Shown here: one piece after another, positions 16,367-54,945 of the stretch
Numbering within the stretch: position 1 is the stretch's first letter
How the letters are laid out: each line of letters starts with the position of its first letter
Assembly (NCBI RefSeq): GCF_001280225.1
Contig: NZ_CP009253.1
Coordinates: 372,001 to 436,000 of the forward strand
Source of the DNA: Buchnera aphidicola (Aphis glycines)
Lineage (GTDB): Bacteria; Pseudomonadota; Gammaproteobacteria; Enterobacterales; Enterobacteriaceae
Direction: 5' to 3'
DNA: 64,000 nt
The notes under the pieces: generated by a model
Told to the model about the DNA's origin: nothing
What the model saw: the letters and a program-made list of their open reading frames with translations, nothing else
The model's database searches: none
Made by a program: the position numbers and the translations under genes

Positions 16367-17379
16367 ATGTTTTACTATTTAATACGTAAACTTTTATTTT
16401 TAATAGATCCTGAAAAATCACATACATTGACGTTGAAATATATTAGTTTTAAATACATACAAAAATTAATAAATTTTTTTTTAAAACCTATTCCATCTAA
16501 ACCAATTAAATGTATGGGATTAAAATTTCCTAACAAGGTTGGTTTAGCTGCTGGAATGGATAAAAATGGTGAATATATAGATTTTTTTTCTAAACTAGGT
16601 TTTGGTTTTATTGAATTAGGCACGGTTACTCCATTACCTCAAACAGGAAACCCAAAACCAAGAATGTTTCGAATAATTCAATCAGAAGCAATTATTAATA
16701 ACATGGGATTTAATAACCTTGGTATAGAAAATCTTATTTATAATATCAAAAAATCAAAATTTAAAGGAATAATCGGGGTTAATATAGGAAAAAATAAAAA
16801 TACTTCTATTAAAAATGCAATAAATGATTATTTAATATGTATCGAGAAAATATATTGTTATACTCATTATATAACTATCAATATTTCTTCTCCTAATACA
16901 AAATATTTAAGAGATTTACAATATGGAGTATTATTTGAAAATTTACTAAAAAATATTAAAATAAAACAAAAGGAAATGCATAAAAAATATTTTAAATATG
17001 TACCAATAGCTATCAAAATTTCACCAGACTTATTAAAACATGAAATAATCCATATTGCTAAAAAATTAATTCAATTTAATATAGATGCAGTTGTCGCAAC
17101 TAACACCACTACAAATCATTTCTCTATCCACAAAAAAATAACAAGTAAACACATGCAAGGAGGTCTCAGCGGTTTACCTTTACAAAACAAGAGTAATTAT
17201 GTAGTGTCAATATTACATCAAGAGCTTAAAAAAAAATTCCTATAATTGGAGTAGGAGGAATTAATTCTTTAAATTCAGCAAAAGAAAAAATAAAGTTAGG
17301 AGCTGATTTAATACAAATATATTCTGGACTTATATATCATGGTCCAATATTTATTAGAAATATAATTAAAAAATTATGA
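16367..17379 (+). CDS. pyrD: Dihydroorotate dehydrogenase, frameshifted in a nine-A run
   Basis: Quinone-linked membrane enzyme of pyrimidine synthesis. The N-terminal 292 codons (16367-17245) are intact: [28 protein letters not shown], the FMN site [26 protein letters not shown] and TNTT. At the A9 run 17228-17236 the frame shifts and hits TAA at 17243-17245. The missing C-terminus ([11 protein letters not shown], then [16 protein letters not shown]) is intact in the -1 frame up to TGA 17377-17379. Ten A would restore a 337-aa protein (E. coli 336). The truncated form would lack the last FMN phosphate-binding loop. Either a recent pseudogene, a sequencing error, or a gene rescued by transcriptional slippage. 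Confidence 0.88.
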
Positions 17380-19453
17380 ACTATTTATATGCAATTACAA
17401 ATTCAGGATGTGAAAATTGTTAGAAAAGGAACTTATTTCTTTAAGAACAAAAAATTTAAATATTATTGACGGAGGTATTTATTATGAAGCGAAGGATTTG
17501 CTATTATACGAAAGTGTAATATGAAATCGAATTGCTTCTAATATTTATATATGTATTAAAAATTTTACCATTAACAGTATCCATAATTTATATACTAACA
17601 CTTATCAAATTAATTGGAACAAAATTTTTTATTTAAAAAATACATTTTTAATAAAATTTAAAGGATACAGTAATATTGTTAAAATAGTTCGTTTGCTGTA
17701 TTAACTATAAATAATGCAATTATAGATCAATTTTATAAAAAATATTCTATGTATCCTAATATTAATCTTATTAATCCTGATATCAATATTCAAGTATTAT
17801 TAATTAATAACAGAATAAATATTATGTTATATCTATCTGGATATTCTTTGCATCAAAGATGGTATCGAAAATGTTTTAATATTACTTCGCTACAAGAAAA
17901 ATTAAGTGCGGCAATTATATTAAGCTCTACATGGAAAAAAATTTTCTTTTAATCGATCCTATTCGTGGTTCTGAGACTATGTGAATTAAAGCAGCTATGA
18001 TTTATTCTGATAGAGCACCAGAATTAAAAAGAAATAAATTAGGTTTTAAATATCGTAAAGGATATAATAGTTTTTTATGGAATACAGTTTGTAATGAAGC
18101 AAATAAAAGATTTGAAACTAAAATAAGTAAATGTCATAAAAATTTATTTATAGGATATGATTATAATAAAAAAATTATAAAACAAGAAAAAGAAAATGCG
18201 TTTAATGCAAACATATTAAAAATTATTCAATTTTCAACATGTAATTTAAATAATATTATTAACCTGTATAAAAATAAAAAAATTAGAATATTATTAAGCA
18301 ACCCATCGCATACAGACAAAGAAAATGCTGAAAGCACACTAGTAGTATTATATGTTCAAATCGGTTTTGTATTGAAGAAGTACTTTAAAAATTAAACACT
18401 ATAAATATTTACTAGATCAGAATTTTTATTGCATTTCGTACAAATAGAATATTATGAAACATTTTTTTAAGAATGCTCTATCCGACTGTTTTTTAAGAAA
18501 TTATAAAATGTCTTCAAACATACTAAATTATGAAAATAAAGAATACGAAAACAGACTAAAAAAGAATATCAAAAAATTAAAAACATGGAATGACTGAAAA
18601 AAAATAGACTGTTTTCGTATATATGATAGAGATATACCTAATTATAATATTGTTGTACATGTTTGTAAAAACTGGTTAGTTATTCAAGAATATCAAGTTC
18701 CAAAAGAAATAAATATACATAATTCTTATAAAAGATTATGCGATGCAATGTATTACACTAAAGAAGTATTATCTATTTCAATTAATAAGATAGTGCTTAA
18801 GATAAAAAAACAAAAAAATTACAATATCAAAAACTTTTTAATAGTAAAAAATTTTTTATAATTCAAGAATATAAGACTAAATTATTAATAAATTTATTTG
18901 ATTATTTAGATTGTGGATTATTTTTGTAACATCGATACGTAAGAAAGATTATAAGTACGATATCACATGGTAAAGATTTTTTAAATTTATTTGCATATAC
19001 TGATAGTGTGACTGTTTTTACTAAATTAAGAGGAACTAAAAGTACAACGACTATAGATATATCCAAAAAATATATACAGTATTCTATAAAAAATATGTCA
19101 ATTAATAATATAATTGGAATACAACATTCTTTTATCCAAACAAACTGTTTAGAGTAGATCGAATCAACTTATCAAAAATTTGATTTAATATTTTTTAATC
19201 TACCAACTTTTTCAAATTCGAAAAAATGAAAAAGTTTTTTGAATTAAAAAAGATTATCTTAACTTATTAAAAATTTTAAAAAAACTTTGCGAAAAATGGT
19301 TGTATTATTTTTTCAAGCTCTAAAAATAATTTTAAATTAGATTTTGATAAAACTAAAAAAATGAAAATATATGTTAAAAATATTACTCATTTAATGCAAT
19401 CAAAAGATTTTTTAAATGAAAAATATTACTCCTGGATAATAAAACATACATAA
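17376..19453 (+). pseudogene. rlmL: Decayed 23S rRNA methyltransferase RlmKL (ycbY)
   Basis: Remains of the bifunctional enzyme that methylates G2445 and G2069 of 23S rRNA (E. coli 702 aa). The ATG overlaps the pyrD stop and reads [15 protein letters not shown] then a stop; the homology continues through several frames with many stops. Recognisable pieces are the THUMP-like region (17420-17750), LSGYSLHQRWYRK (near 17850), a degraded SAM motif IDPIRGSETM (E. coli LDPMCGSGTL, near 17960), YDRDIPNYNIVVH (near 18630), KDFLNLFAYTDSVTV (near 18970), and NLPTFSNSKK (near 19200). The open pieces 17749-17952 and 17997-18395 are fragments, not separate genes. It ends 20 bases before uup, as in E. coli. 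Confidence 0.9.
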
Positions 19454-19474
19454 TGAATTTTAAATGAGAACAAT

Positions 19475-21247
19475 ATGAATGTTATTAGTATACAAGATGC
19501 TTCTTTGTCATTTAGCGATTTAGAAATACTAAAAAATACTTCTTTTTATTTAAATAAAAATGAACGTGTTTGTTTGACTGGAAAAAATGGAGTAGGAAAA
19601 TCAACTCTATTAAAAGTGATCAATAAAAAACAAGATTTAGATTCAGGTGTAGTTATCTATAGAAAAAACATTAAAATATCATATTTATCTCAAAAAAATT
19701 TAGATCATTTAAATATTTCAATTTTCGAATTTATTAAAAAAAAATTTAAAAAAATTAATCTTCACGAAATCCTAAAAATAGAAAAAATCATTGAAATATT
19801 AAATCTTAAAAAAGATACTTTACTTTCAGAAGCATCTGGTGGATTTTTAAGAAAAATTGCATTAGGCGCTGCATTAGTAAATGAACCTGATATATTATTA
19901 CTAGATGAACCCACTAATCATCTAGATGTCAATACAGTAAAATGGTTAGAAAATTTTTTAAAAAATTTTTCTGGGAGTGTTGTATTCATATCACATGATA
20001 GATTTTTTATTAATAATATATGCACAAGAATTATTGATCTTGATCGAGGAAAACTTAGATCATTCCCAGGAGATTATAAAAAGTTTATTATATTAAAAAA
20101 TAAGAATCATGAAATTGAAAAAATTCAAAAAAAATTGTTTGATCAAAAATTAAACAAAGAAGAAATTTGGATTAAAAAGGGAATTAAAGCACGAAGCACA
20201 AGAAATGAAGGTAGAGTAAAAAATTTAGAAAAGCTAAGAAAAGAAAATGAAAATTATAAAAAAATAGAAAAATTTGAAAATATTTTAATTAATGAAACTA
20301 AAGATTATTCTGGAAAAATTATGTTTCATTTAAAAAATATAAATTTTTGTATTTCAAATAAAAAGATTATTCACAATTTTTCTTCAATAATACAATATGG
20401 TGATAAAATAGGATTTATAGGTAATAGTGGTTCTGGTAAAAGTACTATGATAAAAATACTCATAGGAGAAAATAAAATCAAAACAGGATGTTTCTACTCA
20501 AGTAAGAAGGTGAAAATAGCATATTTTGATCAAAATCGAACAATATTAAATCCTAAAAAATCTATTTTAGATAATATTAATGAAGGGAAAAATGAAATAA
20601 TAATTAACGGAAAAAAACATTATTTAATAGGATACTTAAAAAAATTTTTATTTCAACCATACGAATTAAAACGATTAGTAAAAACTTTATCTGGTGGAGA
20701 GTGCAATAGATTACTTTTAGCTAAATTATTTTTACAAAAAAACAATACATTAATTCTTGATGAACCTACGAATGATTTAGATCTAGATACATTAAAATTG
20801 TTAGAAAACATTATTATTCGGTATTCTGGAACTGTTATAATAGTCAGTCATGATAGAAGTTTTATTCAAAATACGGTTAATCAATATTGGATGTTTAAGG
20901 GTAACGGATTAATCACTAAACACTTAAATAGCTACAACGAAATAATAGATAAAAAAATAAAAAAAGATAAAAATAAAAAAAATATATATGTTTTAAATAA
21001 AAAATTAAATTTACCAAACAAAAACAAGCTCAAAAAAGAAACAGAAAAAATATTAAATCAAATTGAACAAATAGAAAAAAATATTACAATTTTACAAAAT
21101 AAAATAAATCAACCTGAATTTTTTAGAAAAAATTTTATTAATCAATTGCCTATGTTGAAAGAATTAGATTTAGAAGAAAAAAAATTAGAAAAAAAAATAA
21201 CATATTGGGAAAATTTAGAAAAAAATATAAATAACTCCAATAATTAG
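19475..21247 (+). CDS. uup: ABC-F family ATPase Uup
   Basis: Soluble tandem ABC ATPase; Uup is linked to transposon excision, branched DNA intermediates and ribosome function in E. coli. The product is 590 aa (E. coli 635). The first cassette has Walker A GKNGVGKST, signature ASGGFLRK, and LLLDEPTNHLD. The second has GNSGSGKST, LSGGECNRLL, and LILDEPTNDLD. The linker keeps KARSTRNEGRVK. The Lys-rich C-terminal domain (about residues 510-590) is a predicted coiled coil, as in Uup. No transmembrane segments are seen. Confidence 0.94.
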   Translation: MNVISIQDASLSFSDLEILKNTSFYLNKNERVCLTGKNGVGKSTLLKVINKKQDLDSGVVIYRKNIKISYLSQKNLDHLNISIFEFIKKKFKKINLHEILKIEKIIEILNLKKDTLLSEASGGFLRKIALGAALVNEPDILLLDEPTNHLDVNTVKWLENFLKNFSGSVVFISHDRFFINNICTRIIDLDRGKLRSFPGDYKKFIILKNKNHEIEKIQKKLFDQKLNKEEIWIKKGIKARSTRNEGRVKNLEKLRKENENYKKIEKFENILINETKDYSGKIMFHLKNINFCISNKKIIHNFSSIIQYGDKIGFIGNSGSGKSTMIKILIGENKIKTGCFYSSKKVKIAYFDQNRTILNPKKSILDNINEGKNEIIINGKKHYLIGYLKKFLFQPYELKRLVKTLSGGECNRLLLAKLFLQKNNTLILDEPTNDLDLDTLKLLENIIIRYSGTVIIVSHDRSFIQNTVNQYWMFKGNGLITKHLNSYNEIIDKKIKKDKNKKNIYVLNKKLNLPNKNKLKKETEKILNQIEQIEKNITILQNKINQPEFFRKNFINQLPMLKELDLEEKKLEKKITYWENLEKNINNSNN

Positions 21248-21254
21248 TTTCAAA

Positions 21255-22220
21255 TTAAACATTATTTTTTTTTAATAAAACGTTAGCCTGTTTCATACAA
21301 TCAAAAGAGCAACAATTTTTAAAATTGATTGCACAGCTATGACATTGAATAAACAATAGATGACATAAATTAAACATACAATTTACATAGTTATTTGAAG
21401 GCTGATTGCATTGTGTACAAAGAGATAAAACATCTTCTGATATTTTTTCGCTCATTCGATTATCAAATACAAAATTACTTCCTTTAAATAAAATAGGTAA
21501 TCTATTTCTTTTTGCTTGATTTACATACCCAATAATTCCACCTTCTATGTGATAAACATTCGTAAAGCCATTAAAAATCATCCAAGATGTTGCTTTTTCA
21601 CAGCGAATACCACCGGTACAATACATTACTATTTTTTCATTTTTAGCATAACTCATAGTTTTAATTATATTTTTTAACTGTTCTCGAAACGTATTGCTTT
21701 TAATTTCGATAGCATTAGGAAATCGACCTATTTTATATTCATAAGAATTTCTCATGTCAATAAATATTATTTTTTTATTCTGAATCATTAAATTAACTTT
21801 TTCTGCATTAACATATGTTCCAACATGTTCAAATTTAAATAAAGGATTTTCAATACCATCATTTACAATGTTTTTTTTAACCTTGACAGAAAACATCCAA
21901 AATGCATATACATTATTAAAACTAAATGTTTTATTAATACGTACGTTATTTAATTCCGAGTCAAATTGATATAAAAATTTTTTAAAACTCGAATAGATAT
22001 GAACAGGGATACTAATTTGAGCATTTATTCCTTCATTAGCAATATATACTCTACCTAATATTTGATATTGTAGAAAATTTTTATAAATTTGATCTCTATA
22101 ACTTTGAGGATCTTTAATATAAAAATACTTATAAAATGAAAGAATTAAACGAGGTGTTTTTTTTAAAAACATATTATTTTTTAATGCTTTTTTAGAACTA
22201 CGATTATGTAAAATTGACAT
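21255..22220 (-). CDS. trhO: tRNA uridine(34) hydroxylase TrhO (YceA)
   Basis: Oxygen-dependent enzyme that hydroxylates U34 of some tRNAs on the way to 5-(carboxy)methoxyuridine. The product is 321 aa (E. coli 350). A ferredoxin-like N-terminal domain (GRVYIANEGINAQISIPV) is followed by a rhodanese domain: FIDMRNSYEYKIGRFPNAI and the active loop MYCTGGIRCEKAT with its Cys. The C-terminal Cys-rich region (CTQCNQP, CHLLFIQCHSCA, NCCSFDC) probably binds zinc. It converges on uup with an 8-base gap and no visible terminator between them. Confidence 0.93.
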   Translation of the reverse strand: MSILHNRSSKKALKNNMFLKKTPRLILSFYKYFYIKDPQSYRDQIYKNFLQYQILGRVYIANEGINAQISIPVHIYSSFKKFLYQFDSELNNVRINKTFSFNNVYAFWMFSVKVKKNIVNDGIENPLFKFEHVGTYVNAEKVNLMIQNKKIIFIDMRNSYEYKIGRFPNAIEIKSNTFREQLKNIIKTMSYAKNEKIVMYCTGGIRCEKATSWMIFNGFTNVYHIEGGIIGYVNQAKRNRLPILFKGSNFVFDNRMSEKISEDVLSLCTQCNQPSNNYVNCMFNLCHLLFIQCHSCAINFKNCCSFDCMKQANVLLKKNNV

Positions 22221-22250
22221 AATAAACCTATAATATAATAAAAATAAATG

Positions 22251-25151
22251 TTACATTTTATCACGAGATAAATTATTTTCATTTTCATTTAAAAGATTAT
22301 TAAAAATTTTTATTTGACGCGATAATTTAGAATATATTTCATTTAAATTTTTTAATTTTTCTTTTTCTTTTTGTATAATATTTTGAGGAGCATAACGTAA
22401 AAAATCTTGATTTAATATTTTTTCTTTTATAGATATAATTTTTAATGTAATATTTTTTATTTCTTTATTTAATCGTTTCAATTCAATTTTTTTATCTATT
22501 ATATCAAATATAGGAATTAAAATTTCTACGCCATCAATAATTTTTTTAATAGATAATAAAGGTTCTTTATATTTTTTAGAAACAATTTCAATTTTATCTA
22601 AATGAACTATATTTTTTAACAATAAAAAATTTTCTTGAATAATTTTTTCTCGATCATAAGAGACATTTTTTAAAAATAATGATAATAATGTTTTTGAACC
22701 AATTTTCATTTCAGATCTAATATTTCTTAAAGCAATTATTATTTTTTTGATCCAATGCATATCTAATAAAATCTTTTCATTAAAAAACAAATTATTATAT
22801 TTCGGAAAAGGTTGAAGCATAATCGTTTTTTCTTTAATATTTTTAATTTTTTTAACACGTTGCCAAATGGTTTCAGTAATAAAAGGTATAATTGGATGTA
22901 ATAATTTTAAAAGTTTCTCCAAAATATCCACTAAAATATTTTTAGTATAATATACATCTTGAGATGAACCAGATTTTATAATTAATTTAACAAACTCTAA
23001 ATACCAATCACAAAAAGTATTCCAAGTAAAATCATATAAAATATTCGCCGAAACATCAAATCTATAGTTATCTAATGAATTTCTATATAGTTTTACTACC
23101 TTGTTAAACTCCGTTAAAATCCATTTATTTATAAACATCATATTATCATTTATTTCAAAATGAAAGAAACGATGATTATTGGTATTCATCAAAACAAATC
23201 GACTAGCATTCCACAGTTTATTACAAAAGTTTCGATAACCTCTCAATCTACTCATATCCCATTTTATATCGCGTGTATTAGAAGCTAAAGCGCAAAAAGT
23301 AAAACGTAATGCATCTGTACCTGTTGGACTAATTCCATTTGGAAATTGCTTTATAGTACGTTTTTTAATTTTATAAGATAGTTGTGGTTTTAATAAATTA
23401 TGTGTTCTTTTCTTAATTAAATCATTTAACGTAATACCGTCTATCATATCCAATGGATCAATAACATTACCTTTCGATTTTGACATTTTTTGACCTTCCT
23501 CATCACGTATTAAACCTGTAATATACACGTTTTCAAAAGGTACTTGAGATATACCAAAATTATCTTTAACAAGATACATAGTTAACATAATCATTCTAGC
23601 AATCCAAAAAAAAATAATATCAAAACCGCTCACTAATACATTAGTGGAATGAAAAACTTTTAAAAATTTTGTTTTTTTAGGCCATCCTAGTGTGGAAAAA
23701 GTCCATAACCCAGAAGAAAACCAAGTATCTAAAACATCTTCGTCTTGAATTAATTTTATATCATTTGATATTTTATAATTTTTCCGTATTTCATTCTCAT
23801 CACGTCCAACATATATATTTTTTTTACAATCATACCAAACTGGAATACGATGCCCCCACCATAATTGACGTGAAATACACCAGTCTTCAATATTGTTCAT
23901 CCAAGATAAGTACATAGCTTCATATTTTGATGGAATAAAATTAATTTTTTTTTCTTTAACTGCAGAAATCGCTAAATTAGCTAATTTTGATGTTTTCAAG
24001 TACCATTGATTAGTCAACATAGGCTGGATAATGACACCACTTCTGTCGCTATGAGGTGTAAGAATTTCACATTCTTCAACTTTTTCCAGTAATCCTATTT
24101 TTTTTATTTCCTCAATGACTTTGATTCTTGCAGAAATAATATCTAAATTTTGAAACTTATTCGGTACTAATGAACTATATATATTAGATATTTCGCCTTT
24201 ATAATTATAAACATCAAAATTATTTTTAATTTTACCATCAAACGTGAAAATATTAATCATTGGTAATTTATGCCGTAATCCTACTTGGTAATCATTGAAA
24301 TCATGTGCAGGTGTAATTTTTACACAACCCGTTCCTTTTTTTAGATCTGCATATTGATCTGAAATAACAGGTATGATTCTATTCACTAACGGACATATAA
24401 CAAATTGACCAATAAACTGTTGATAATTTTTATCTTGCGGATTAATAACTAAAGCTGTATCTCCTAGTAATGTTTCAGGTCGAGTTGTGGTAACTGTTAA
24501 ATATTGAATCTGCTGATTATTTTTTTTTTGATTAAAAAAAACAGGATATCGAATAAACCATTTTTTGCTTTTTACTAAACGATGCTCTACTTCTAGATCG
24601 GAAATAACTGTTTCTAATTTTGAATCCCAATGTACTAATCTTTTTTTTTGGTATATTAAATTATCTTTATAAAAAATAACAAAAGCTTCTTTAACAGCAT
24701 TGCAAATATCAGGATCTAAAGTAAATTTTTCACGATCCCAATCAACAGAATTTCCTAAACGTCGCATTTGTTTTGTAACGATAAGATTATATTTATTTTT
24801 CCATGACCATATTTTTTTAATAAAATCATCTCTATGATAATCTTTTTTAGTTTTATTTTCTGTAAGATATATATCACGTTCAACTAATACTTGTGTTGCT
24901 ATTCCAGCATGATCTGTTCCAACTTGCCATAACGTATTTTTTCCTTGCATTCTGTGATAACGAATTAATATATCCATAATAGTTTGTTGAAATGCATGCC
25001 CCATGTGTAAATTCCCAGTAATATTAGGAGGTGGCATCATAATACAAAACGATGGTTGAGTTGCATCGTTACTAGGTTTAAAATATCCGTTTTTTTCCCA
25101 AAAATTATATAAAGATTCTTCAATATGCTGAGGATTGTAAGTTTTTTCCAT
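22251..25151 (-). CDS. valS: Valyl-tRNA synthetase
   Basis: Charges tRNA-Val. The product is 966 aa (E. coli 951). The class I HIGH motif is in PPPNITGNLHMGHAF and the KMSKS motif in EGQKMSKSKGN. The CP1 editing domain is present (TTTRPETLLGDTA and GTGCVKITPAHDFNDYQVG), as are LDTWFSSGLWTFSTLGW, the helical anticodon domain and a C-terminal coiled coil. In-frame A10 and A9 runs on the coding strand lie near 24530 and 24650. E. coli has holC between pepA and valS; the gap here is only 65 bases, so holC is gone. Confidence 0.97.
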   Translation of the reverse strand: MEKTYNPQHIEESLYNFWEKNGYFKPSNDATQPSFCIMMPPPNITGNLHMGHAFQQTIMDILIRYHRMQGKNTLWQVGTDHAGIATQVLVERDIYLTENKTKKDYHRDDFIKKIWSWKNKYNLIVTKQMRRLGNSVDWDREKFTLDPDICNAVKEAFVIFYKDNLIYQKKRLVHWDSKLETVISDLEVEHRLVKSKKWFIRYPVFFNQKKNNQQIQYLTVTTTRPETLLGDTALVINPQDKNYQQFIGQFVICPLVNRIIPVISDQYADLKKGTGCVKITPAHDFNDYQVGLRHKLPMINIFTFDGKIKNNFDVYNYKGEISNIYSSLVPNKFQNLDIISARIKVIEEIKKIGLLEKVEECEILTPHSDRSGVIIQPMLTNQWYLKTSKLANLAISAVKEKKINFIPSKYEAMYLSWMNNIEDWCISRQLWWGHRIPVWYDCKKNIYVGRDENEIRKNYKISNDIKLIQDEDVLDTWFSSGLWTFSTLGWPKKTKFLKVFHSTNVLVSGFDIIFFWIARMIMLTMYLVKDNFGISQVPFENVYITGLIRDEEGQKMSKSKGNVIDPLDMIDGITLNDLIKKRTHNLLKPQLSYKIKKRTIKQFPNGISPTGTDALRFTFCALASNTRDIKWDMSRLRGYRNFCNKLWNASRFVLMNTNNHRFFHFEINDNMMFINKWILTEFNKVVKLYRNSLDNYRFDVSANILYDFTWNTFCDWYLEFVKLIIKSGSSQDVYYTKNILVDILEKLLKLLHPIIPFITETIWQRVKKIKNIKEKTIMLQPFPKYNNLFFNEKILLDMHWIKKIIIALRNIRSEMKIGSKTLLSLFLKNVSYDREKIIQENFLLLKNIVHLDKIEIVSKKYKEPLLSIKKIIDGVEILIPIFDIIDKKIELKRLNKEIKNITLKIISIKEKILNQDFLRYAPQNIIQKEKEKLKNLNEIYSKLSRQIKIFNNLLNENENNLSRDKM

Positions 25152-25216
25152 TGTATTTAATTATTTTCTGTTAACAAGTAATGTTTTTAATTGAATATAA
25201 AACGTTTTAAAATTAT

Positions 25217-26713: not shown

Positions 26714-26798
26714 AATATATCTCTATAATTTTATTTTTTACAGTTTATAATGTACAAAGCAGCCATAAATAATTTAATTAAAAATAATAAAATATTAT

Positions 26799-26813: not shown

Positions 26814-26904
26814 GAAAATATTCAATCATTTAAGATTTTTTATTAGTTTCATTTTTATATATATTTAAAACCCATTGAAATCTAATTTTAAGAGAATTGA
26901 AATT

Positions 26905-28957: not shown

Positions 28958-28966
28958 TAAGAAAAT

Positions 28967-41026: not shown

Positions 41027-42360
41027 TTAAATTAATTTGATTACATTTGTAATATTATGCGCGATTTTTTTTATCTTACTATAATCTTCATCTTCTAACA
41101 TAATTCGAAGACAAGACTCAGTTCCAGATTTTCGCATAAAAATACGACCAGTATTTCTCAAAATATTTTTTGATTGCTCAAGAATAGATTGAAATTTTGT
41201 ATTTTTTTGAAAATTTTTCTCTTTTTTCAAAGACAAATTCAACAATATTTGAGGAAATAATTTTACTTGATTAGATAAACAGTATAAAGATGTGTTATTT
41301 TCAATCATACTTGATAATACTTGTAGACTAGCGATAATTCCATCACCAGTAGAATGTTTATCTAATAAAATAACATGTCCTGATTGTTCAGCTCCAAGCA
41401 TCCAATTTTTTTCTTTAATTTTTTTATATATATAACGATCTCCTATGTTTGTAGCGTAAAACGGTATTCCAATTTTTTTTAAACCTAAAATAATACCCAT
41501 ATTAGTCATTAAAGTACCTACCACGCCACCAATTAACTGATTATTTTTTGAATATTGTTTTGCAATAATATAAATAATTTGATCTCCATTTATTGTATTT
41601 CCTAAATGATCTACCATAATAACACGATCTCCATCACCATCAAATGCTAATCCAACATCAGCTTGATGCAAAACAACTAATTTTTTTAGCTGATTAATGT
41701 TAGTAGATCCTGATTTTTTATTTATATTGATGCCGTTTGGACAAACAGAAGAAGTTATAATATTTGCACCTAAATCTTTAAAAATTTGAGGCGCTATATT
41801 ATAAGTCGACCCATTAGCACAATCCAATACAATAGTAAATTTAGATAAATTCATATATTTAGGAAAAGTATTTTTACAAAAATTAATATATTTTTTTGAA
41901 GCATTATAAATTTTTTTAGGCAATCCAAAATTTTTTACATAAGACTGATCATAAGCAAGATCATTTATTTTTTTTTCAATTAAAACTTCAATATTTCTAG
42001 TAATTTTAATTCCGTTTTTAAAAAATATTTTTATTCCATTATCATCAAAAGAATTATGAGAAGCTGAAACGATAATACCTGCTGAAACATTTAAAGATCT
42101 TGTTAAATATGCAATTGCAGAAGTAGGTATACAACCAGCTGATAAAGTAGAAATGCCTTTTGACAAAACACCAAATTCTAAAGAATACTGTAACATACAT
42201 CCCGAAATACGTGTATCCCGTCCAATAAGAATTTTTTTTTATTTTTTCCTAAAATAGTTCCAATAATTTGCCCTAATTTTAACATAAAATTCGGGGTAAT
42301 TGGGATTTCACCTACTTTTCCACGTATTCCATCTGTTTTAAAATATTTAAAATTTTTCAT
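41027..42360 (-). CDS. glmM: Phosphoglucosamine mutase, frameshifted in a nine-A run
   Basis: Interconverts glucosamine-6-P and glucosamine-1-P, needed for UDP-GlcNAc and so for peptidoglycan. The start is the ATG at 42360 ([17 protein letters not shown]). The frame breaks in a run of nine A on the coding strand (42240 to 42232): as read it gives [10 protein letters not shown] and ends at TAA 42178-42180. One more A gives [18 protein letters not shown], joining the long downstream frame that ends at 41027. The restored protein is 444 aa (E. coli 445). The phosphoserine loop [13 protein letters not shown], metal site DGDGDR and C-terminal RKSGTE are intact. No second glmM is seen in the window. 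Transcriptional slippage at the A run is the likely rescue; a sequencing error is the alternative. Confidence 0.9.
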
Positions 42361-45113: not shown

Positions 45114-45176
45114 ATTACTTAATTCTTTTATAACATTGATAATAAATTAAATTATTTTAGTTGAAAAAATAATGTT

Positions 45177-45656: not shown

Positions 45657-46170
45657 CTAACATACCTCATTTTTTTTCTTCAAGAATATAAAATATTCAT
45701 TTCAATACAGTAAAAATTTTTATTTTATTTTCAAAATAAAACATATTTTGAAAAAGATTTAATTTTAATTAAATATTTTGAAAAAATTAAATTATTCATA
45801 TATTTTAATAAAGAAAATTAGTAATATTAGTTTATCATTGATAAAATCTAATAAAGCAAAAAAAATTAAAGATTTTAATATTACTTATTAAATAGAAAAT
45901 AATATTTAAATTATTTCCTATGAAATTATTATAGAGGCAAAATTCATAATTTTTTAAAAAATACATCTTTTCGATACAAATATTAACCGTCAAATAAATG
46001 TATCTATCTTAATGTAAAAAATACAATTTATCAAAAATTTCAATTATGTGAAGAAAAACTATTTATTAATTTATTATAAAGACGCTCATAATAAAATTTA
46101 AAATATATTTATACATGTATAATTTGAAAATTTTTATATCTCAAAAAAACTAAATTAAAGTATATTTAAA
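45657..46170. other. Divergent intergenic region greA/ibaG with nested inverted repeats
   Basis: No gene is seen in these 514 bases. A nested structure stands out: a 10-bp repeat (AGTAATATTA, 45820-45829, with TAATATTACT, 45876-45885) encloses a perfect 7+1+7 palindrome (TTTATCA T TGATAAA, 45831-45845). Promoters for greA and ibaG must lie here, but none can be chosen with confidence at this AT content. E. coli dacB, next to greA, is absent. Confidence 0.45.
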
Positions 46171-46419
46171 ATGAACAATCAAAAAATAATATCTATATTA
46201 AATAATAAATTAAATTTAGAAAAAATATATGCTACCGGAGATAATAATCACATGGAGATCATCGCAATAGGAGAGATATTTAAAGGTATTAGCCAAGTGA
46301 AAAGACAACAAATGATTTACGCACCTTTAATTAATATGATCACAGAAAAAAAAATTCATGCATTATCTATCAGAACATATACAACAGAAGAATGGAAAAA
46401 AAATGAAAAAAGCTCTTAG
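46171..46419 (+). CDS. ibaG: BolA-family protein IbaG (YrbA)
   Basis: Small BolA-like protein, linked in E. coli to acid stress and to iron-sulfur binding with monothiol glutaredoxins. The product is 82 aa (E. coli 84). Core segments are TGDNNHMEIIAIGEIF, SQVKRQQMIYAPL and KIHALSIRTYTTEEW; the His in KIHAL is the usual cluster ligand. It is directly upstream of murA, as in E. coli. Confidence 0.9.
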   Translation: MNNQKIISILNNKLNLEKIYATGDNNHMEIIAIGEIFKGISQVKRQQMIYAPLINMITEKKIHALSIRTYTTEEWKKNEKSS

Positions 46420-46456
46420 TTAAATATTTTAAAAATTAATAGAGATTTGATAATGA

Positions 46457-47710
46457 ATGAATAAATTATATATAGAAGGTAATAAAAAATTAAATGGTCA
46501 TGTTGTAATTTCGGGTTCTAAAAATGCCGCTTTACCTATTTTATTTATGACAATATTAGCAACAGAGGAAATTGAAATACATAATATTCCACAAGTTACA
46601 GATATTAAAATAGCAATAAAACTACTAAAATATTTAGGAGCAAAAATAAAAAATAAAAACAAAATTTTATATATTGATACAAGTAGCATGAATATTTATA
46701 ACCCACCATATCACCTAACAAAAAAAATCAGAGCGTCTATTTGGATGCTAAGCCCACTTGTAACACGTTTCGGAAAAGCTAAGATATTTTTTCCAGGAGG
46801 ATGCGATATAGGTTGCAGACCCATTGACCTTCATTTAAAAGGATTGGTGTCGCTAGGAGTTAAAATTATAAAAAAAGATAATTATATCATTGCATTAGCT
46901 GACAGACCTCTTCAAGGAAAACATATTTATATAGAAAAAATTAGTGTTGGAGCAACTGTGACTATTATGAGCGCTGCAACATTAGCAAAAGGCTTGACAA
47001 TCATAGAAAATGCTGCTCAAGAACCTGAAATTGTTGATGTTGCAAAATTTCTAAATACTTTAGGTGCTAATATTACTGGGGCAGGAAGCAATAAAATATA
47101 TATCACAGGTGTTTCTAAGTTATATGGGGGATATCATAAAATTATACCAGATAGAATTGAAACAGGAACTTTTTTAATAGCTGCTGCGATTTCTAAAGGA
47201 TTTATCATATGTAATAAAACTGAGCCAAAATATCTAACAAATGTATTAAAAAAACTATCTGAAAGTGGTGCAAATATAAAAGTTGGAAAAAATTGGATTA
47301 AATTAGATATGCAAAAAAAGATGCCGAAAGCAGTAAATATTTCAACATCTCCATATCCTGGTTTTCCAACTGATATGCAACCACAATTTACTTTATTAAA
47401 TAGTATTGCTCAAGGAAAAAGTATTATTGTTGAAAATATATTTGAAAATCGTTTCGTTTATACCAATGAATTAATTCGCATGGGGGCTAAAATAAAGATT
47501 AAAAAAAATTATATTGTTTGTACAGGCACTTCAAAACTATCTTCTAACAATCTTTTTTGTCATGATTTAAGAGGTTCAGCTACATTAATTTTAGCAGGAT
47601 GTATTGCAAATGGAATTACAGTAGTAAATAATATTCATCATTTTAAAAGAGGATATGAATCATTTATGAAAAAACTAAATAAATTAGGAGCAAATATTAA
47701 ATATATATAA
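46457..47710 (+). CDS. murA: UDP-N-acetylglucosamine 1-carboxyvinyltransferase
   Basis: First committed step of peptidoglycan synthesis, adding enolpyruvate to UDP-GlcNAc. The product is 417 aa (E. coli 419). The start is the second of two overlapping ATGs (46457, MNKLYIEGNKKLNG); the first runs into a stop after two codons. The catalytic, fosfomycin-reactive Cys is in FPGGCDIGCRPIDLH. Other motifs: ISGSKNAALPI, TVTIMSAATLA and DRIETGTF. Its substrate depends on glmM, which is frameshifted elsewhere in the window. Confidence 0.96.
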   Translation: MNKLYIEGNKKLNGHVVISGSKNAALPILFMTILATEEIEIHNIPQVTDIKIAIKLLKYLGAKIKNKNKILYIDTSSMNIYNPPYHLTKKIRASIWMLSPLVTRFGKAKIFFPGGCDIGCRPIDLHLKGLVSLGVKIIKKDNYIIALADRPLQGKHIYIEKISVGATVTIMSAATLAKGLTIIENAAQEPEIVDVAKFLNTLGANITGAGSNKIYITGVSKLYGGYHKIIPDRIETGTFLIAAAISKGFIICNKTEPKYLTNVLKKLSESGANIKVGKNWIKLDMQKKMPKAVNISTSPYPGFPTDMQPQFTLLNSIAQGKSIIVENIFENRFVYTNELIRMGAKIKIKKNYIVCTGTSKLSSNNLFCHDLRGSATLILAGCIANGITVVNNIHHFKRGYESFMKKLNKLGANIKYI

Positions 47711-47794
47711 TAATATTTTAATTACCTATTATATAAAAGAAATTATTAGTATTTCATTAATCAAAAACAAATAGAGAAATCATTGGAGTATTAC

Positions 47795-48115
47795 ATGTAT
47801 GCAGTTTTTTTAAGTGGTGGAAAACAATATCGAGTTAAAAAAAATCAAGTAATTCATATAGAAAAATTAAATTGTTCAACTGGATCAATAGTTGAATTCG
47901 AAAAAATTTTAATGATTTCAAATAAAAATAAAACAGAAATAGGATATCCTTTTTTAAATGGAATCAAAGTGAAAGCGTTTGTCGAGCATCATGGAAGATC
48001 CAAAAAAATCAAAGTAATTAAGTTTAACCGTCGCAAACATTATAAAAAACAGCAAGGACATCGTCAACATTTTACTAGTGTAAAAATCATAGATATTAAC
48101 CATGTAGAGAAATAA
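47795..48115 (+). CDS. rplU: 50S ribosomal protein L21
   Basis: Large-subunit protein of 106 aa (E. coli 103). The start is the ATG at 47795 ([14 protein letters not shown]) with TTGGAG 6 bases upstream; an in-frame TTG at 47783 belongs to that ribosome site. The C-terminal signature [14 protein letters not shown] is intact. rpmA follows after one base. E. coli ispB, upstream of rplU, is not present. Confidence 0.96.
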
Positions 48116-48116
48116 A

Positions 48117-48371
48117 ATGGCACATAAAAAAGCTGGTGGTTCCACAAGGAACGGAAGAGATTCTCATGCTCAACGATTAGGTGTAAAACATTTTGGTGGT
48201 GAACTAGTGTCAGCAGGAAGCATTATCGTAAGACAAAGAGGAACTAAATTTCATCCTGGGAAAAATACAGGTTGTGGAAAAGATCATACTATTTTTGCAA
48301 TTGTTGAAGGAAGAATAGAATTTAAAAAAAAAGGAGCAAAAAAAAGAACATATATTAACATTATTAACTAA
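48117..48371 (+). CDS. rpmA: 50S ribosomal protein L27
   Basis: Large-subunit protein whose N-terminus reaches the peptidyl-transferase centre. The product is 84 aa (E. coli 85). It begins [20 protein letters not shown], with no N-terminal cleavage extension, and continues [17 protein letters not shown]. It is 1 base from rplU, so the two are coupled. A terminator follows. Confidence 0.97.
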
Positions 48372-48380
48372 TAAAAATAA

Positions 48381-49478
<1,098 letters not shown>

Positions 49479-49548
49479 GATTTTTTAATTTTTTTATTTA
49501 ATTTTTAATTTTTTTAAAATAAAAATATCACATTATGAAAAACCAACA

Positions 49549-49583
49549 AAAGAACTCGGTTTAATACAAAAACCAAGTTCTTT
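49549..49583. terminator. Terminator between obgE and rpsI
   Basis: A 13-bp stem with one mismatch (AAAGAACT and GGTTT, pairing with AAACC and AGTTCTTT; 49549-49562 with 49570-49583) lies between convergent genes. On the minus strand T-rich sequence follows, so it best serves rplM-rpsI; it may also stop obgE transcription. Confidence 0.75.
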
Positions 49584-49607
49584 AAAATAAGTCTTATTAT
49601 TTTCAAT

Positions 49608-49997
49608 TTAACGTTTAGAAAATTGTATTCGTTTTCTAGCTTTACGAAAACCTACTTTTTTCCGTTCTACTTGTCGTGAATCACGTGTAACAAATCCAGA
49701 TTTTCTGAGTTCACTACGTAATAATGGATTATAATCTATTAGAGCACGAGTAATACCTTGTCTAATTGCACCAGCTTGACCAGAAATTCCTCCACCTTTT
49801 ACTGTAATATAAAAATCAAAATTGTTTATCATATCGATTAATTCTAAAGGTTGCCGAACAATCATACAAGAAGTTTCTCGGCCAAAATAGTTATTTAACA
49901 AACGTTTATTCACAACTATTTTTCCTGTTCCTGGTCTTAAAAAGACTCTAGCAGAAGAACTTTTACGACGTCCAGTTCCATAATTTTGAATTTTCAT
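49608..49997 (-). CDS. rpsI: 30S ribosomal protein S9
   Basis: Small-subunit protein whose C-terminal tail reaches the P-site tRNA. The product is 129 aa (E. coli 130). Segments [36 protein letters not shown] and the C-terminal QFSKR are intact. It follows rplM by 22 bases, the conserved rplM-rpsI operon. Confidence 0.97.
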
Positions 49998-50019
49998 AAT
50001 TTATTTTAATATTATCCTA

Positions 50020-50448
50020 TTAAATATTTAAAAATCGAGGACATTGGGCTATATGATCATGTTTATCATCAGAAAAAATTTTTAATTTTTTTAGCATTAA
50101 TCGTCCTAATGGCCCTTTTGGTAACATCCCTTTAACTGCTATTTTAATAATTTTTTCAGGATTTTTTGACATAATTTCCTCAAATGTAAATTTTTTTATT
50201 CCACCAATATAACCTGTATGATGATAATATATTTTTTTACTTTTCTTTTTTCCTGTAACTAATACTTTAGAAGCGTTTAAAACTATAATATAATCTCCAA
50301 TATCAAGATGCGGCGTATATTGAGGTTTATGTTTGCCTCTAAGACGTAAAGATACAGCACTTGCGAATCTTCCAAGCACTTTATTGGTAGCATCAACATA
50401 AAACCAATCTCTCTTAATATTTTTTTCTTTAATTGAAAAAGTTTTCAT
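50020..50448 (-). CDS. rplM: 50S ribosomal protein L13
   Basis: Early-assembling large-subunit protein of 142 aa, the same length as E. coli. The start is the ATG at 50448 ([15 protein letters not shown]); an in-frame ATG at 50460 would add four residues. Core motifs [16 protein letters not shown] and [11 protein letters not shown] are kept. It heads the rplM-rpsI operon and is divergent from pheA across about 285 AT-rich bases. Confidence 0.97.
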
Positions 50449-50734
50449 TAAATGACTCACTATAAAATAATATATCTAAAAAACGATATTATTAAAACTA
50501 ACAAAATACAATAAGTATATTATCATCTATTGCACCTAGTGAAATATTTTTAAAAAAAATATTTGATGTACTTTTAAAAAACAACTCATTTTTTTAGATA
50601 TAAAAATAGTATATTATATGTTGATTATTATTTTTATATCAAAAAATTAATACTGATTAAGTAAAAATATTTGATTTTAATTCTAATATAAAACATATTA
50701 AATATTTTAATAGGTAAAACAGGTAAAATACGCT

Positions 50735-51880
50735 ATGTTGTCTCAAAATGATTTATTAAATTTTCGCCATAAAATTAACAATATTGATAAAAAAATAGTC
50801 ATGTTACTTGCGAAAAGAAAAAAACTAATATTAGATATTGCTCAGTCTAAAATACAAAATAATCAGCCTATACGAGATATAAATCGTGAAAAAAATTTGC
50901 TATCTAATCTAACTGATCTAGGAAGAAAAAAAAATTTAAATACTAATTATATACAACGTTTGTTTACACTAATCATTGAAGAGTCTGTATTGACTCAAAA
51001 AAAATTATTAGAAAAATTTCGAACTCAAAGAGACACAAATAAAACTATTATTTCTTTTCTTGGTGATGAAGGATCTTATTCATATATCGCTTTATCTAGA
51101 TATAAAAAACACAATATAAAAAACATTATTCGAAGAAAATGCTCAAATTTTGAAGAAGTTGTTCAATCAGTCGAAAATAATGAATCAAATTATGCTATTT
51201 TACCAATAGAAAATACTTGCTCTGGTCCTATCAATGAAATATTTAACATTTTAAAAAATATAAATTTATTTATTGTAGGAGAAATTTATGTCGATATAAA
51301 TCATTGTTTGTTAGCAATAGAAAAAGTGGAACTTAATACTATTCAAAAAGTATATAGTCATTCTCAACCATTTAAACAATGTAGTAATTTTATTAATCAA
51401 TTTCCACATTGGAAAATTGAACATACTCATAGTACAACCGATGCGATGAAAAAAATTATTCAAAAAAACGAAAAAACTAATGCTGTTTTAGGAAGTGAAA
51501 TAAGCAGTAAAATTTATAAATTAAAAATTTTATGCCAAAATATATCCAATATAAAAAATAATATAACTAGATTTGTTTGTTTATCAAAAAAACCTTATAA
51601 AATTGATTTAGATAAACAAGTAAAAACTACAATAATATTTTCTTTAAAAAAAGAAAAACAAGAACTTTCTAAAATTCTTTCAACTTTAGAACCAAAAAAC
51701 ATAATGGTGAAAATGTTAAATTTTTATAATGATAATACAAAAGACCAAATGTTTTATCTTGATATTGAAAAAAAAATATCATCTAACACAATGCAAAATA
51801 TTTTTAAAAAAATTCAAAAAATTAGCAAATTTATCAAAATATTAGGTTGTTATCCTAGTGCCAATAAAAAACTGTTTTAA
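50735..51880 (+). CDS. pheA: Chorismate mutase / prephenate dehydratase (P-protein)
   Basis: Converts chorismate to prephenate and on to phenylpyruvate, the precursor of phenylalanine. The product is 381 aa (E. coli 386). The N-terminal mutase (residues 1-90) keeps its active-site set (FRHKINNIDKKI, RDINREKNLL, FTLIIEESV). The dehydratase has GDEGSYSYIA, LPIENTCSGPI and the TRF motif. In the C-terminal ACT regulatory domain the phenylalanine-binding motifs of E. coli are changed: GALV reads QELS and ESRP reads NFYN, while the end (MFYLDIE, LGCYPS) is conserved. No leader peptide or attenuator is visible upstream. This suggests loss of feedback inhibition. Confidence 0.96.
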   Translation: MLSQNDLLNFRHKINNIDKKIVMLLAKRKKLILDIAQSKIQNNQPIRDINREKNLLSNLTDLGRKKNLNTNYIQRLFTLIIEESVLTQKKLLEKFRTQRDTNKTIISFLGDEGSYSYIALSRYKKHNIKNIIRRKCSNFEEVVQSVENNESNYAILPIENTCSGPINEIFNILKNINLFIVGEIYVDINHCLLAIEKVELNTIQKVYSHSQPFKQCSNFINQFPHWKIEHTHSTTDAMKKIIQKNEKTNAVLGSEISSKIYKLKILCQNISNIKNNITRFVCLSKKPYKIDLDKQVKTTIIFSLKKEKQELSKILSTLEPKNIMVKMLNFYNDNTKDQMFYLDIEKKISSNTMQNIFKKIQKISKFIKILGCYPSANKKLF

Positions 51881-51992
51881 TTATAATATTTTGAAATATT
51901 TATTAATTAAAAATATTTTTAAAATTAATTCAAATATTTTTAATGATTACATTTTACATTATTCAATATTAATTTATTAAAGAGCAATGAAT

Positions 51993-53345
51993 ATGTTTAG
52001 TAGCCTAACTGAACGCCTCTCAAAAAGTTTTCGTAACATTATTCATAAAGGAAGACTGACAGAAAGTAACATTAAGGATACAATAAGAGAAGTAAGAAAA
52101 GCACTACTAGAAGCTGATGTTACGTTATCAGTAATAAAGACATTTATAAATAACGTCACAAACAAAGCAATTGGTTGCGAAATTAATAAAAGTCTTACTC
52201 CTGGACAAGAATTTATAAAAATTGTACGAAATGAATTAATTTTAGCTATGGGTGAAAAAAATAATAATTTAAATTTATCTATTTGCCCACCAGCAGTGAT
52301 ATTAATAGTAGGTTTACAAGGAGTTGGAAAAACTACAACTACAGCAAAAATAGCGAAATGGATACAAGATAAACATAAAAAAAAAATACTCATCACATCT
52401 ACCGACATTTATCGTGCCGCGGCGATAAAACAATTAGAAATTCTATCTACTCAGATTAATGTAAACTTTTACACACCAGATGCTCATCAGAAACCAATAT
52501 ATATAACAGAAAAAGCAATTCAACATGCTAAATTAAAATTATATGATATTTTGTTAATAGATACAGCTGGACGCATGCATATTGATGAAATAATGATGAA
52601 CGAAATAGAAAAAATACAAAATCTTTCTCAACCTATTGAAACATTGTTAGTAGTCGATTCGATGATGGGTCAAGATGCAATTAATATGGCAAAAAATTTC
52701 AGTAAATCTTTATCTATATCAGGTATTATATTAACAAAAACTGATAGCGATGCTAGAAGTGGAGTTGCATTATCAATGCGTTATGTTACTAAAAAACCTA
52801 TTAAATTTATAGGAACAGGAGAAAAACTAGAAAATTTAGAAATATTTTATCCAGCACGTATAGCTGATAAAATTTTAGGCATGAATAAAGTTATATCTGT
52901 TATTAAAGATATTGAAGAAAAAATTAACCAATCTCATGTGAAAGATTTAACTAAAAAACTAAAAAAAGGTCATGATTTTAATTTAAACGATTTTTTAACT
53001 CAAATAAAAGAAATGAGAAAAATAGGAGGATTAAACTATTTTATAGATAAATTTTCAAACAATAAAACAATGCATAATAGTTCATTATTAAATGATGAAA
53101 AAAATAATTTGAATAAAATAGAAGCAATAATCTATTCAATGACGCCTAAAGAACGAAACAATCCAGATATTATAAAAGGCTCTCGTAAACGTAGAATTTC
53201 TTTAGGATCTGGAACTAAAATTCAAGATGTTAATAAATTATTAAAAAATTTTGGCGATATAAAAAAAGTTATGAAGAAAATCAAAAGTAACGGAATCAGT
53301 AAAATTATACGAAACATTAAAAATATATTACCTAAAAACTTTTAA
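51993..53345 (+). CDS. ffh: Signal recognition particle protein Ffh
   Basis: SRP GTPase that binds 4.5S RNA and signal sequences. The product is 450 aa from the ATG at 51993 (MFSSLTERLSKSF; E. coli MFDNLTDRL), with AAAGAG well spaced; an ATG at 51987 lies too close to it. NG domain: GLQGVGKTTTTAKIA, DTAGRMH, TKTDSDARSG. The M domain keeps the RNA-binding KGSRKRRIS and GSGTKIQDVN. Its C-terminal methionine-rich helices are mostly Met-free: KKVMKKIKSNGISKII, where E. coli has many Met. Confidence 0.95.
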   Translation: MFSSLTERLSKSFRNIIHKGRLTESNIKDTIREVRKALLEADVTLSVIKTFINNVTNKAIGCEINKSLTPGQEFIKIVRNELILAMGEKNNNLNLSICPPAVILIVGLQGVGKTTTTAKIAKWIQDKHKKKILITSTDIYRAAAIKQLEILSTQINVNFYTPDAHQKPIYITEKAIQHAKLKLYDILLIDTAGRMHIDEIMMNEIEKIQNLSQPIETLLVVDSMMGQDAINMAKNFSKSLSISGIILTKTDSDARSGVALSMRYVTKKPIKFIGTGEKLENLEIFYPARIADKILGMNKVISVIKDIEEKINQSHVKDLTKKLKKGHDFNLNDFLTQIKEMRKIGGLNYFIDKFSNNKTMHNSSLLNDEKNNLNKIEAIIYSMTPKERNNPDIIKGSRKRRISLGSGTKIQDVNKLLKNFGDIKKVMKKIKSNGISKIIRNIKNILPKNF

Positions 53346-53417
53346 AATATATTAAAATAATTACATTAATGAATTCAATAAAAAATATTTTCATTATGAA
53401 AAAATTAAGGGAAAAAC

Positions 53418-53675
53418 ATGGTAAAAATTCGATTAGCTCGATATGGAAATAAAAAACGTCCTTTTTATAAAATAGTAGCAGCAGATAGTCGATTTTCTAG
53501 AGATGGTCGTTTTATTGAACAACTAGGTTACTTCAATCCATTATCAAAAGATATAACTACTTCTTTACAAATCAATATTAATCGTATTATATATTGGAAG
53601 CAAAATGGAGCGCAGATTTCAGACCGATCAAACAAACTCATTAAATTATTTAAAAAAAATAAGGCAACATTATAA
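53418..53675 (+). CDS. rpsP: 30S ribosomal protein S16
   Basis: Early-assembling small-subunit protein of 85 aa (E. coli 82). It begins [20 protein letters not shown] and contains [26 protein letters not shown] lies upstream of the ATG. Its stop TAA (53673-53675) overlaps the probable ATA start of rimM. It heads the rpsP-rimM-trmD-rplS operon, as in E. coli. Confidence 0.97.
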
Positions 53676-54196
53676 ATATTAAATCATATACAATCATAAA
53701 CCCTATTTTAGTTGGAAAAATTGGAAGAGTTTACGGAATATTAGGTTGGATAAACTTGTTTTCTTTGACAGAAAATAAAGAAAAAATATTTAGTTATCTC
53801 CCATGGTTTACTTTAAAAAATAAAAAATGGAAAACTATTCAACTAAAAAATTGGAAAAAACATAATAATCGTTTTATTATTCAAATTAACAATGTCATAG
53901 ATAGATCAATAGCAAGCACGTGGACTAATGCTGATATTTTTATTGATCAAAGTCAATTACCAAAACTTAAAAAAAACGAATATTATTGGAACGATATTAT
54001 AAAATGTGAAGTGTTTAATGTAAAACATCAATATTTAGGTACAGTAATTAATTTAACAAGCAACAAATACAATGATACTATTCTTATAAAGAATAAGATA
54101 AAAAAAAATAAAACAATTATGATTCCATTTATCATTGAAAAAATAGTAAAAAATATAGATATTAAAAATAAAACCATAATAGTCCAATGGAATTAA
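53672..54196 (+). CDS. rimM: 16S rRNA processing protein RimM, non-ATG start
   Basis: Needed for 30S head maturation; binds S19. The frame opens after a stop at 53660-53662 and has no ATG, GTG or TTG until TTG 53756. The conserved N-terminus ([17 protein letters not shown]) lies upstream of that TTG and so must be translated. The best candidate is ATA 53672, which overlaps the rpsP stop as ATAA and has AAGG 7 bases upstream. A single G-to-A change in an ATGA overlap would produce this. ATT at 53669 or 53678 are other options. From 53672 the product is 174 aa (E. coli 182), with the PRC-barrel segment [11 protein letters not shown] and C-terminal IVQWN. Confidence 0.85.
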
Positions 54197-54945
54197 AATA
54201 TGATATATCAATCAAAAAAAAAAATAATCAAGCATTGATATCATTTTATATAATTACTATATTTCCAGAAATGTTCACTTCGATTTCACATTATGGAGTA
54301 ACTGGAAAAGCCATTCAAAAAAAAATTATTGAACTTAGTTTTATAAATCCAAGAGATTTTACTGAACATAAACATAAATCTGTAGACGATCGTCCTTATG
54401 GAGGAGGACCAGGCATGTTAATGACTGTTCAACCATTATATTTATCAATTAAACATGCGCAATCTTTACTGAAAGATGCAACAGTTGTGTATTTATCTCC
54501 ACAAGGAATAAAATTAAATCAAAATAATATTTTTAATCTGATTCAAAAGAAAAAAATTATTTTTGTATGTGGAAGGTATGAAGGAATAGATCAGCGAATT
54601 ATCGATTCTTTAATAGATGAAGAATGGTCAATAGGTGATTATATCTTGACTGGTGGAGAACTTGCAGCAATGGTAATAATAGATTCTGTTTCCAGATTTA
54701 TTCCTGGTGTAATTAACAAAAAAAAATCATTAGAAAATGAATCTTTTTGCAATAATTTACTTGATTACCCAAATTACACTAGACCAAAAGAAATTTATAA
54801 TATGAAAGTTCCAGATATCTTACTTTCTGGTGATCACAATAAAATTCGTTTATGGCGATTAAAAAAATCTTTAGAAAAAACTTTAGAAAAACGACCAGAT
54901 TTATTGGAAAAAAAAATTTTAAAAAAGAAGAAAAAAATATTTTAA
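54187..54945 (+). CDS. trmD: tRNA (guanine(37)-N1)-methyltransferase TrmD, likely 3' frameshift
   Basis: Makes m1G37, which prevents +1 frameshifting. The product as read is 252 aa (E. coli 255). Knot and SAM motifs: DDRPYGGGPGMLM, YLSPQG, CGRYEGIDQRI, EEWSIGDYILTGGELAAM, DSVSRFIPGV. The ATG at 54187 overlaps rimM by 10 bases and adds about 16 residues compared with E. coli; TTG 54235 would match its start better. At the 3' end, an A9 run at 54908-54916 shifts the frame to a Lys-rich tail ending at 54945. With ten A the frame reads FKKEEKNILNAFRKIK and stops at 54987-54989, matching the E. coli tail (TEEQARLLAEFK). Confidence 0.9.
   Translation: MELKYDISIKKKNNQALISFYIITIFPEMFTSISHYGVTGKAIQKKIIELSFINPRDFTEHKHKSVDDRPYGGGPGMLMTVQPLYLSIKHAQSLLKDATVVYLSPQGIKLNQNNIFNLIQKKKIIFVCGRYEGIDQRIIDSLIDEEWSIGDYILTGGELAAMVIIDSVSRFIPGVINKKKSLENESFCNNLLDYPNYTRPKEIYNMKVPDILLSGDHNKIRLWRLKKSLEKTLEKRPDLLEKKILKKKKKIF

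Follow-up and report, generated by a model that had tools for sequence, protein, structure and literature searches.

The stretch of DNA analysed here (the window) covers 64 kb of the 638,851-base genome of Buchnera aphidicola (Aphis glycines), which consists of three contigs and is called G000 below, with relatives in the comparison set labelled G0xx. Two genes in the window, pyrD and glmM, are each broken once by a frame change at a run of nine A on the coding strand (A9), with no stop and an otherwise intact gene. On the plus strand, the 5′ part of pyrD (16367 to 17227, frame 0) matches positions 1–289 of 336 of NF003644 and runs into the tract at 17228–17236, which is one base short. The open reading frame (ORF) at 16367–17245 enters this A9, and the conserved C-terminal part (IPIIGVGGI...) lies in a different frame over 17236–17379. 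The tail proper (17237–17379) comprises 47 codons and the stop. On the minus strand, glmM starts with an ATG at 42360 and its frame 0 part (42241–42360) ends in the residues LGKN; the A9 tract at 42232–42240 is one base short by both alignments and motif spacing, and the 3′ part continues in the other frame at 41027–42231. This 3′ part contains a 389-amino-acid ORF (41027–42196) that profile matching places at positions 53–441 of the GlmM model TIGR01455. The original prediction had claimed a one-base loss at both tracts, and it was confirmed in 8 of 8 reference alignments for pyrD and in all 7 that covered the site for glmM, the eighth glmM reference (G010) being itself off frame and not covering the break.

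The glmM break is not confined to G000. A search of all 36 genomes of the genus, with an intact GlmM as the query, recovered the gene in 33, as 20 continuous matches (one of which, in G021, carries an internal stop) and 13 matches in two frames. On a tree built from 43 genes in 33 genomes (15,197 columns), the 13 off-frame genomes form one clade, in which 13/13 are off frame at the same tract compared with 0/20 of the other genomes that hold the gene, and the clade is split into an A9 and an A11 group (support of 0.79 for the joint node). In nine genomes, including G000, the tract is A9, the motif spacing is 116 and the gene is one base short; the four A11-type genomes are one or two bases long, with A11 and a spacing of 118 in G001, G010 and G024, and A11 plus an extra T and a spacing of 119 in G008. 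The in-frame state is A10 with a spacing of 117 in G030 and G003, fourteen further genomes have a glmM with an extra codon and a spacing of 120, and G012 could not be read by motif, yet is in frame by the search. No second lesion or stop was found in reference alignments of the 13 off-frame glmM genes.

Purifying selection is seen on both sides of the glmM break over the clade. The mean ratio of nonsynonymous to synonymous differences (pN/pS) in the nine A9 genomes was 0.26 for codons 1–40 and 0.32 for codons 47–440, next to 0.22 and 0.31 in nine intact genomes and 0.29 and 0.24 for the 5′ and 3′ parts in the four A11-type genomes. Individual values for codons 1–40 ranged from 0.11 to 0.72 over the nine off-frame genomes, all of which retain TDGIRG. 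On the G000 branch, with G031 as the outgroup for assigning changes, the 3′ part of glmM accumulated 17, 3 and 31 changes at codon positions 1, 2 and 3.

A control for what a dead gene looks like in this genome is provided by rlmL, directly downstream of pyrD on the plus strand (17380 to 19460, ends approximate). It is typically an ORF of about 700 amino acids in relatives and is a decayed remnant in G000, with 7 frame breaks, none of them at a run longer than 7, and 8 stops in the reference alignments. Its changes on the G000 branch are flat over codon positions 1, 2 and 3 (64, 61 and 71), as expected of a dead gene. In the pyrD tail, 1 change in 47 codons occurred on the same branch compared with 13.8 predicted by the dead-gene rate (p ~1.5e-5). 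The nearest relative, G016, has an identical pyrD A9 with the same flanks, and pN/pS between G000 and G016 was 0.19 before the break and 0.21 after it. Loss of codon constraint and additional lesions are found in rlmL and were seen in neither glmM nor pyrD, and breaks that are shared among species and flanked on both sides by purifying selection are a feature of the latter two genes.

Two further observations concern these genes in other genomes. In G019, pyrD and pyrI are both interrupted several times by frame breaks, at runs no longer than 8, an apparent loss of pyrimidine genes. G053, a symbiont that belongs to a different genus, also has an off-frame glmM (G053:C1:364500-366100, a stretch of 22% guanine plus cytosine). 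Its break lies at residue 228, in an A9 placed elsewhere than the Buchnera tract, and this hit arose independently of the Buchnera clade.

Syntenic 60-kb stretches were taken from 32 of the 35 other genomes of the genus, G014, G017 and G020 being without the pyrD anchor, and frame-tolerant alignment of orthologous proteins to the DNA was used to call breaks. Breaks were kept when seen with at least two references and at least 70% of the references covering them, and when their distance to the start of the protein exceeded 20 residues and that to its end 10, near-terminal calls being dropped as alternative start or end alignments. This left 67 breaks over 33 genomes, 54 in genes classed as otherwise intact and 13 in decayed genes, with the single rlmL break of G003 assigned to the decayed group by judgement. 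Sites shared between genomes were collapsed by hand to distinct sites, and 14 of the 19 distinct single-break sites lay within 20 nucleotides of an A or T run of at least 9, compared with 9.2% of 13,400 positions drawn at random from these genes (p ~2e-11), an excess over chance of the kind that the original prediction proposed to test for, here over 33 genomes. The trmD break of G000 is scored as a miss in this count despite an A9 within 20 nucleotides, and the count stays the same when the N-terminal trmD breaks of G012 and G026 are merged as a single tract and G025 is given a second fabD tract of its own. At the level of genomes, 49 of the 54 single breaks in intact genes were near such a run (48 with trmD of G000 as a miss), and five at runs shorter than 9 were kept as misses (g14 in G018, g23 in G023 and G024, g28 in G030 and g29 in G003). 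None of the 13 decayed-gene breaks was at a run of at least 9.

Set beside coding runs that are in frame, the broken fraction by longest run was 1/1881 at 8, 17/1001 at 9 (including trmD of G000), 19/192 at 10, 7/66 at 11, 6/9 at 12 and 0/2 at 13, each genome being counted singly even where a break is shared by descent, which makes the counts non-independent across relatives. Breaks are thus proportionally commoner at A10–A12, and the proposed rule that they occur at exactly A9 is wrong. The longer runs named as in frame in rne (1331–1340), holB (8597–8607) and alaS (60078–60089) do each lie inside a single ORF. Genes hit at long runs were fabD (two sites), pyrD (three), glmM, trmD (two), rluC, pyrB, nusA, rlmE, rimM and a gene that we take from its sequence to be murA, names being mostly by model match; in G027 the transcription factor gene nusA is one base short at an A9. 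The suggestion of a genome-wide tolerance is supported by the spread of breaks across the genus and not by a further 100 kb of G000 outside the window (77 ORFs of at least 100 amino acids, with references from 7 genomes), which showed no break.

Off-frame states at long runs were one base short in 43 of 48 cases at the genome level and one base long in 5. At the level of sites the direction was 14 short vs 2 long, compared with 4 vs 9 in decayed genes (p 0.003), though decayed breaks are not at long runs and hence are not a matched control for this comparison. The excess of one-base-short states fits the transcriptional insertion bias measured in Buchnera (PMC5574713). The minimum number of changes between in-frame and off-frame states on the tree was 3 for the trmD 3′ tract, 7 for a T tract in pyrD, 5 for fabD (4 without G025) and 1 for glmM, the glmM count omitting G005, G019 and G025, where the gene was unrecovered.

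Switching of this kind was seen in several genes that are in frame in G000. The fabD gene (5148–6116 in the window) is intact in G000, and nine of the 33 genomes have it off frame at A10–A12, with shifts either way; the break is at one tract in eight of them and at another in G025. Extra stretches from 8 genomes were used for two more cases. In murC, G000 is in frame at A14 and G033 at A12, and G016, G031, G001 and G010 are off frame, one base short. A YedA-like transporter (below the model cut-off) is in frame in G000 at T10A10 and off frame in G016, G031 and G033 at T9A10, and perhaps G000 returned to frame through the neighbouring T run.

A third lesion, in trmD, had been described as the same as those in pyrD and glmM, a base missing from the A9 at 54908–54916 (plus strand). 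The break itself is real, but that A9 is in frame and has the same length in G016, G031 and G033; the base was lost in the next run, an A6 at 54921–54926 that is A7 in G033. Protein alignment alone locates the break near 54920, and it is the nucleotide comparison that gives the A6 run. The claim of one common lesion thus fails for trmD. In reference alignments the break at this place was seen in G000 only, and its effect is confined to the end of the protein: the ORF as it stands (54187–54945, plus strand) has an altered tail and still matches the TrmD model TIGR00088 from position 2 to position 226 of 233. This break is separate from the long-run class, a short-run loss near the end of the gene that probably alters only the tail. 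The place is nevertheless a recurrent one: seven genomes of another clade (G002, G006, G011, G012, G029, G032 and G034) have trmD off frame in the A10–A12 tract after the same RPDLL motif, and a shift of frame still recovers their TrmD tail. Close by in the window (53676–53756), rimM apparently starts further upstream than the listed TTG, at a codon other than ATG, since visual inspection shows an open frame before 53756 that matches the RimM N-terminus.

How glmM and pyrD could still be read has several possible answers. We consider it likely that transcriptional slippage on the A tract rescues part of their messages. Each gene lost its frame through the change of a single base within an uninterrupted A tract. 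RNA polymerase slipping there would yield messages of mixed tract length, and full-length GlmM and PyrD could still be made from those in which the count of A happens to be correct. The slippery tract would make the frame change only partly harmful, and such breaks could as a result be fixed, kept, moved or undone. The tract is the sole common element identified at the breaks, and those of glmM and pyrD are pure A/T runs of about 9 or more, as in the class of genes rescued by slippage, with the A6 of trmD outside it. A tolerated homopolymer break, as originally proposed, describes glmM and pyrD, where the tract is slippery, both sides are conserved and the break is shared, and does not describe trmD, with its A6 in one genome. 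Transcript insertions measured in Buchnera mostly add one base within an A/T run, and their frequency climbs exponentially as runs get longer (PMC5574713). A review puts the corrected share of transcripts of such genes at 12–50% in an aphid and an ant symbiont (PMC5009743).

The frames might instead be joined in translation, by lysine-tRNA slippage of the ribosome on the A tract. The slippery heptamer A AAA AAA lies within the A9 of both genes and most off-frame states run in the direction that a −1 shift could join, but the glmM A11 of G001, G010 and G024 is off the opposite way. Because off-frame states run both ways at glmM and fabD, ribosomal frameshifting in one direction is disfavoured; off-frame T tracts also occur in pyrD. 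The nine A9 genomes have no conserved stimulator at glmM: RNA folding downstream of the tract gave no conserved structure (z −0.13 to 0.69), and a conserved Shine-Dalgarno-like element was likewise not found upstream. Ribosomal frameshifting could account for the one-base-short cases and not the others, and slippage, which explains all of them, is therefore preferred. We infer that the frames are joined at transcription and not on the ribosome, which we regard as an unlikely site. A different possibility is that the 5′ part of glmM is irrelevant and translation restarts inside the gene at the Met at 42196, where the 389-amino-acid ORF starts just past the break. This is hardly credible given the constraint on the first 40 codons and the retention of TDGIRG in the nine off-frame genomes, and an internal restart would be useless for pyrD, which is broken close to its 3′ end.

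It is also possible to doubt the breaks themselves or the genes that carry them. Homopolymer miscalls in the assemblies, which the original prediction had named as the alternative, would put breaks at homopolymers and more of them at longer ones, as observed, and the trmD lesion was seen in a single genome. Errors would ignore clades, however, and the restriction of off-frame glmM to every member of one clade refutes miscalling for that gene; the pyrD break is common to two genomes, and a miscall is unlikely in the A6 of trmD, leaving this explanation with next to no probability. That the genes are dead or dying, with the breaks as early steps of loss, might be suggested by the decay of the adjoining rlmL in G000 and of pyrD in G019. 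The loss of constraint and further lesions predicted for glmM and pyrD are seen in neither, constraint is kept on both sides of the break across the clade, and the 13 off-frame glmM genes are free of second lesions and stops, making early decay very improbable.

Several results weigh against slippage-rescued genes under continued selection, and against how readily that can be told from our data. The pN/pS ratio is a blunt measure, as the dead rlmL pair of G000 and G031 reached only 0.40 vs 0.28 for two intact copies. Constraint seems somewhat weaker in other off-frame genes: fabD had values of 0.34 and 0.29 (intact copies 0.27 and 0.24), the part of pyrD that precedes its T tract had 0.38, and the trmD tail of the seven off-frame genomes had 0.45 over 16 codons. 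For the 5′ part of glmM, the G000 branch had 6 changes vs 11.7 expected at the dead-gene rate (p 0.053), and the case for 5′ constraint rests on the clade because this segment is too short on the G000 branch to decide. A mutational bias towards deletion, or −1 shifting on the ribosome, would equally produce the one-base-short excess. The Buchnera transcriptome study that measured slippage at A/T runs reports, in the part of its text considered here, no frame-restoring error (PMC5574713). A weak structure signal was present after the glmM tract in the four A11-type sequences (z −0.8 to −1.8).

Frameshifted genes with poly(A) tracts in Buchnera and Blochmannia are reportedly rescued by transcriptional slippage, as Tamas and colleagues are said to have described in PNAS in 2008. 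The glmM and pyrD lesions are real members of this known kind, and the trmD lesion was misplaced and is private to G000. Our cases resemble that system in that an AT-rich insect symbiont carries a single one-base change in a long A tract of a gene that is otherwise intact and constrained, and differ from it in that glmM and pyrD are known here from DNA alone and that trmD of G000 falls outside the class. By its title, a 2010 article by Wernegreen, Kauppinen and Degnan in MBE is understood to concern ancient homopolymer frameshifts maintained by selection, and off-frame glmM is similarly kept across species without decay. Frameshifts kept between species without gene decay in these symbionts are described in PMC3017870, and rescue by slippage in Buchnera and Blochmannia is cited in PMC3164680, PMC3017870 and PMC5009743. 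Degnan et al. 2011 (PMC3164680) found convergent homopolymeric frameshifts in Buchnera murF, murE, mraY and other genes, with the same genes hit repeatedly in independent lineages and slippage mentioned as a possible rescue; most are scored there as inactivations restricted to single genomes, whereas glmM here is off frame clade-wide with constraint kept. Jiang et al. 2013 (PMC3890641) noted poly-A indels with both flanks conserved in the Buchnera of Myzus persicae and treated the genes as functional, an annotation remark with no genus-wide comparison, unlike the present analysis. A limited search, which did not cover supplements such as Table S3 of PMC3164680, found no published report of any glmM frameshift in Buchnera, the clade-wide, two-state case included, and one may be present in a supplementary table. 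Compared with the published maintained frameshifts, glmM here is in Buchnera, in 13 genomes, and has its tract in two opposite off-frame states.

GlmM is the entry enzyme to the cell-wall precursor, and it could be asked whether its off-frame state is kept and not merely tolerated, the A tract acting as a fixed attenuator that would limit GlmM to the slipped fraction of the message. We hold this to be doubtful, though it has some points in its favour. All 13 clade genomes are off frame with one change on the tree and no return, whereas the minimum number of switches in the genus is 3 for the trmD 3′ tract, 7 for the T tract of pyrD and 5 for fabD (4 without G025). Of the in-frame A runs of at least 9 in G000, 1 of 28 is kept at that length in all readable genomes of the nine-genome clade, and the glmM tract is kept in all nine. 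The symbiont of another genus, G053, also has glmM off frame, at a different A9. On the other side, most of the tracts used for comparison exceed the glmM tract in length, which makes them more mutable, and the stability of glmM was the reason for choosing it. Full retention is also seen in 2 of 4 in-frame T runs, and in the in-frame A9 of trmD, which persists in 8 of 8 genomes when counted from each of three relatives.

For annotation, the slippage explanation, if right, would mean that when a reduced genome has a gene automatically labelled "pseudogene" at a long A/T tract, constraint before and after the break ought to be examined. The suggested rule, for wider testing, is that single breaks in otherwise intact genes are mostly at A/T runs of at least 9 and breaks in decayed genes are not. 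The part most worth specialist attention is glmM, which is off frame clade-wide, in two opposite tract states, and constrained on both sides. If the slippage explanation is true, a gene needed for cell-wall synthesis would be read only via polymerase error across a whole symbiont clade, and the glmM clade would be a long-running natural test of the expression level that such a gene needs.

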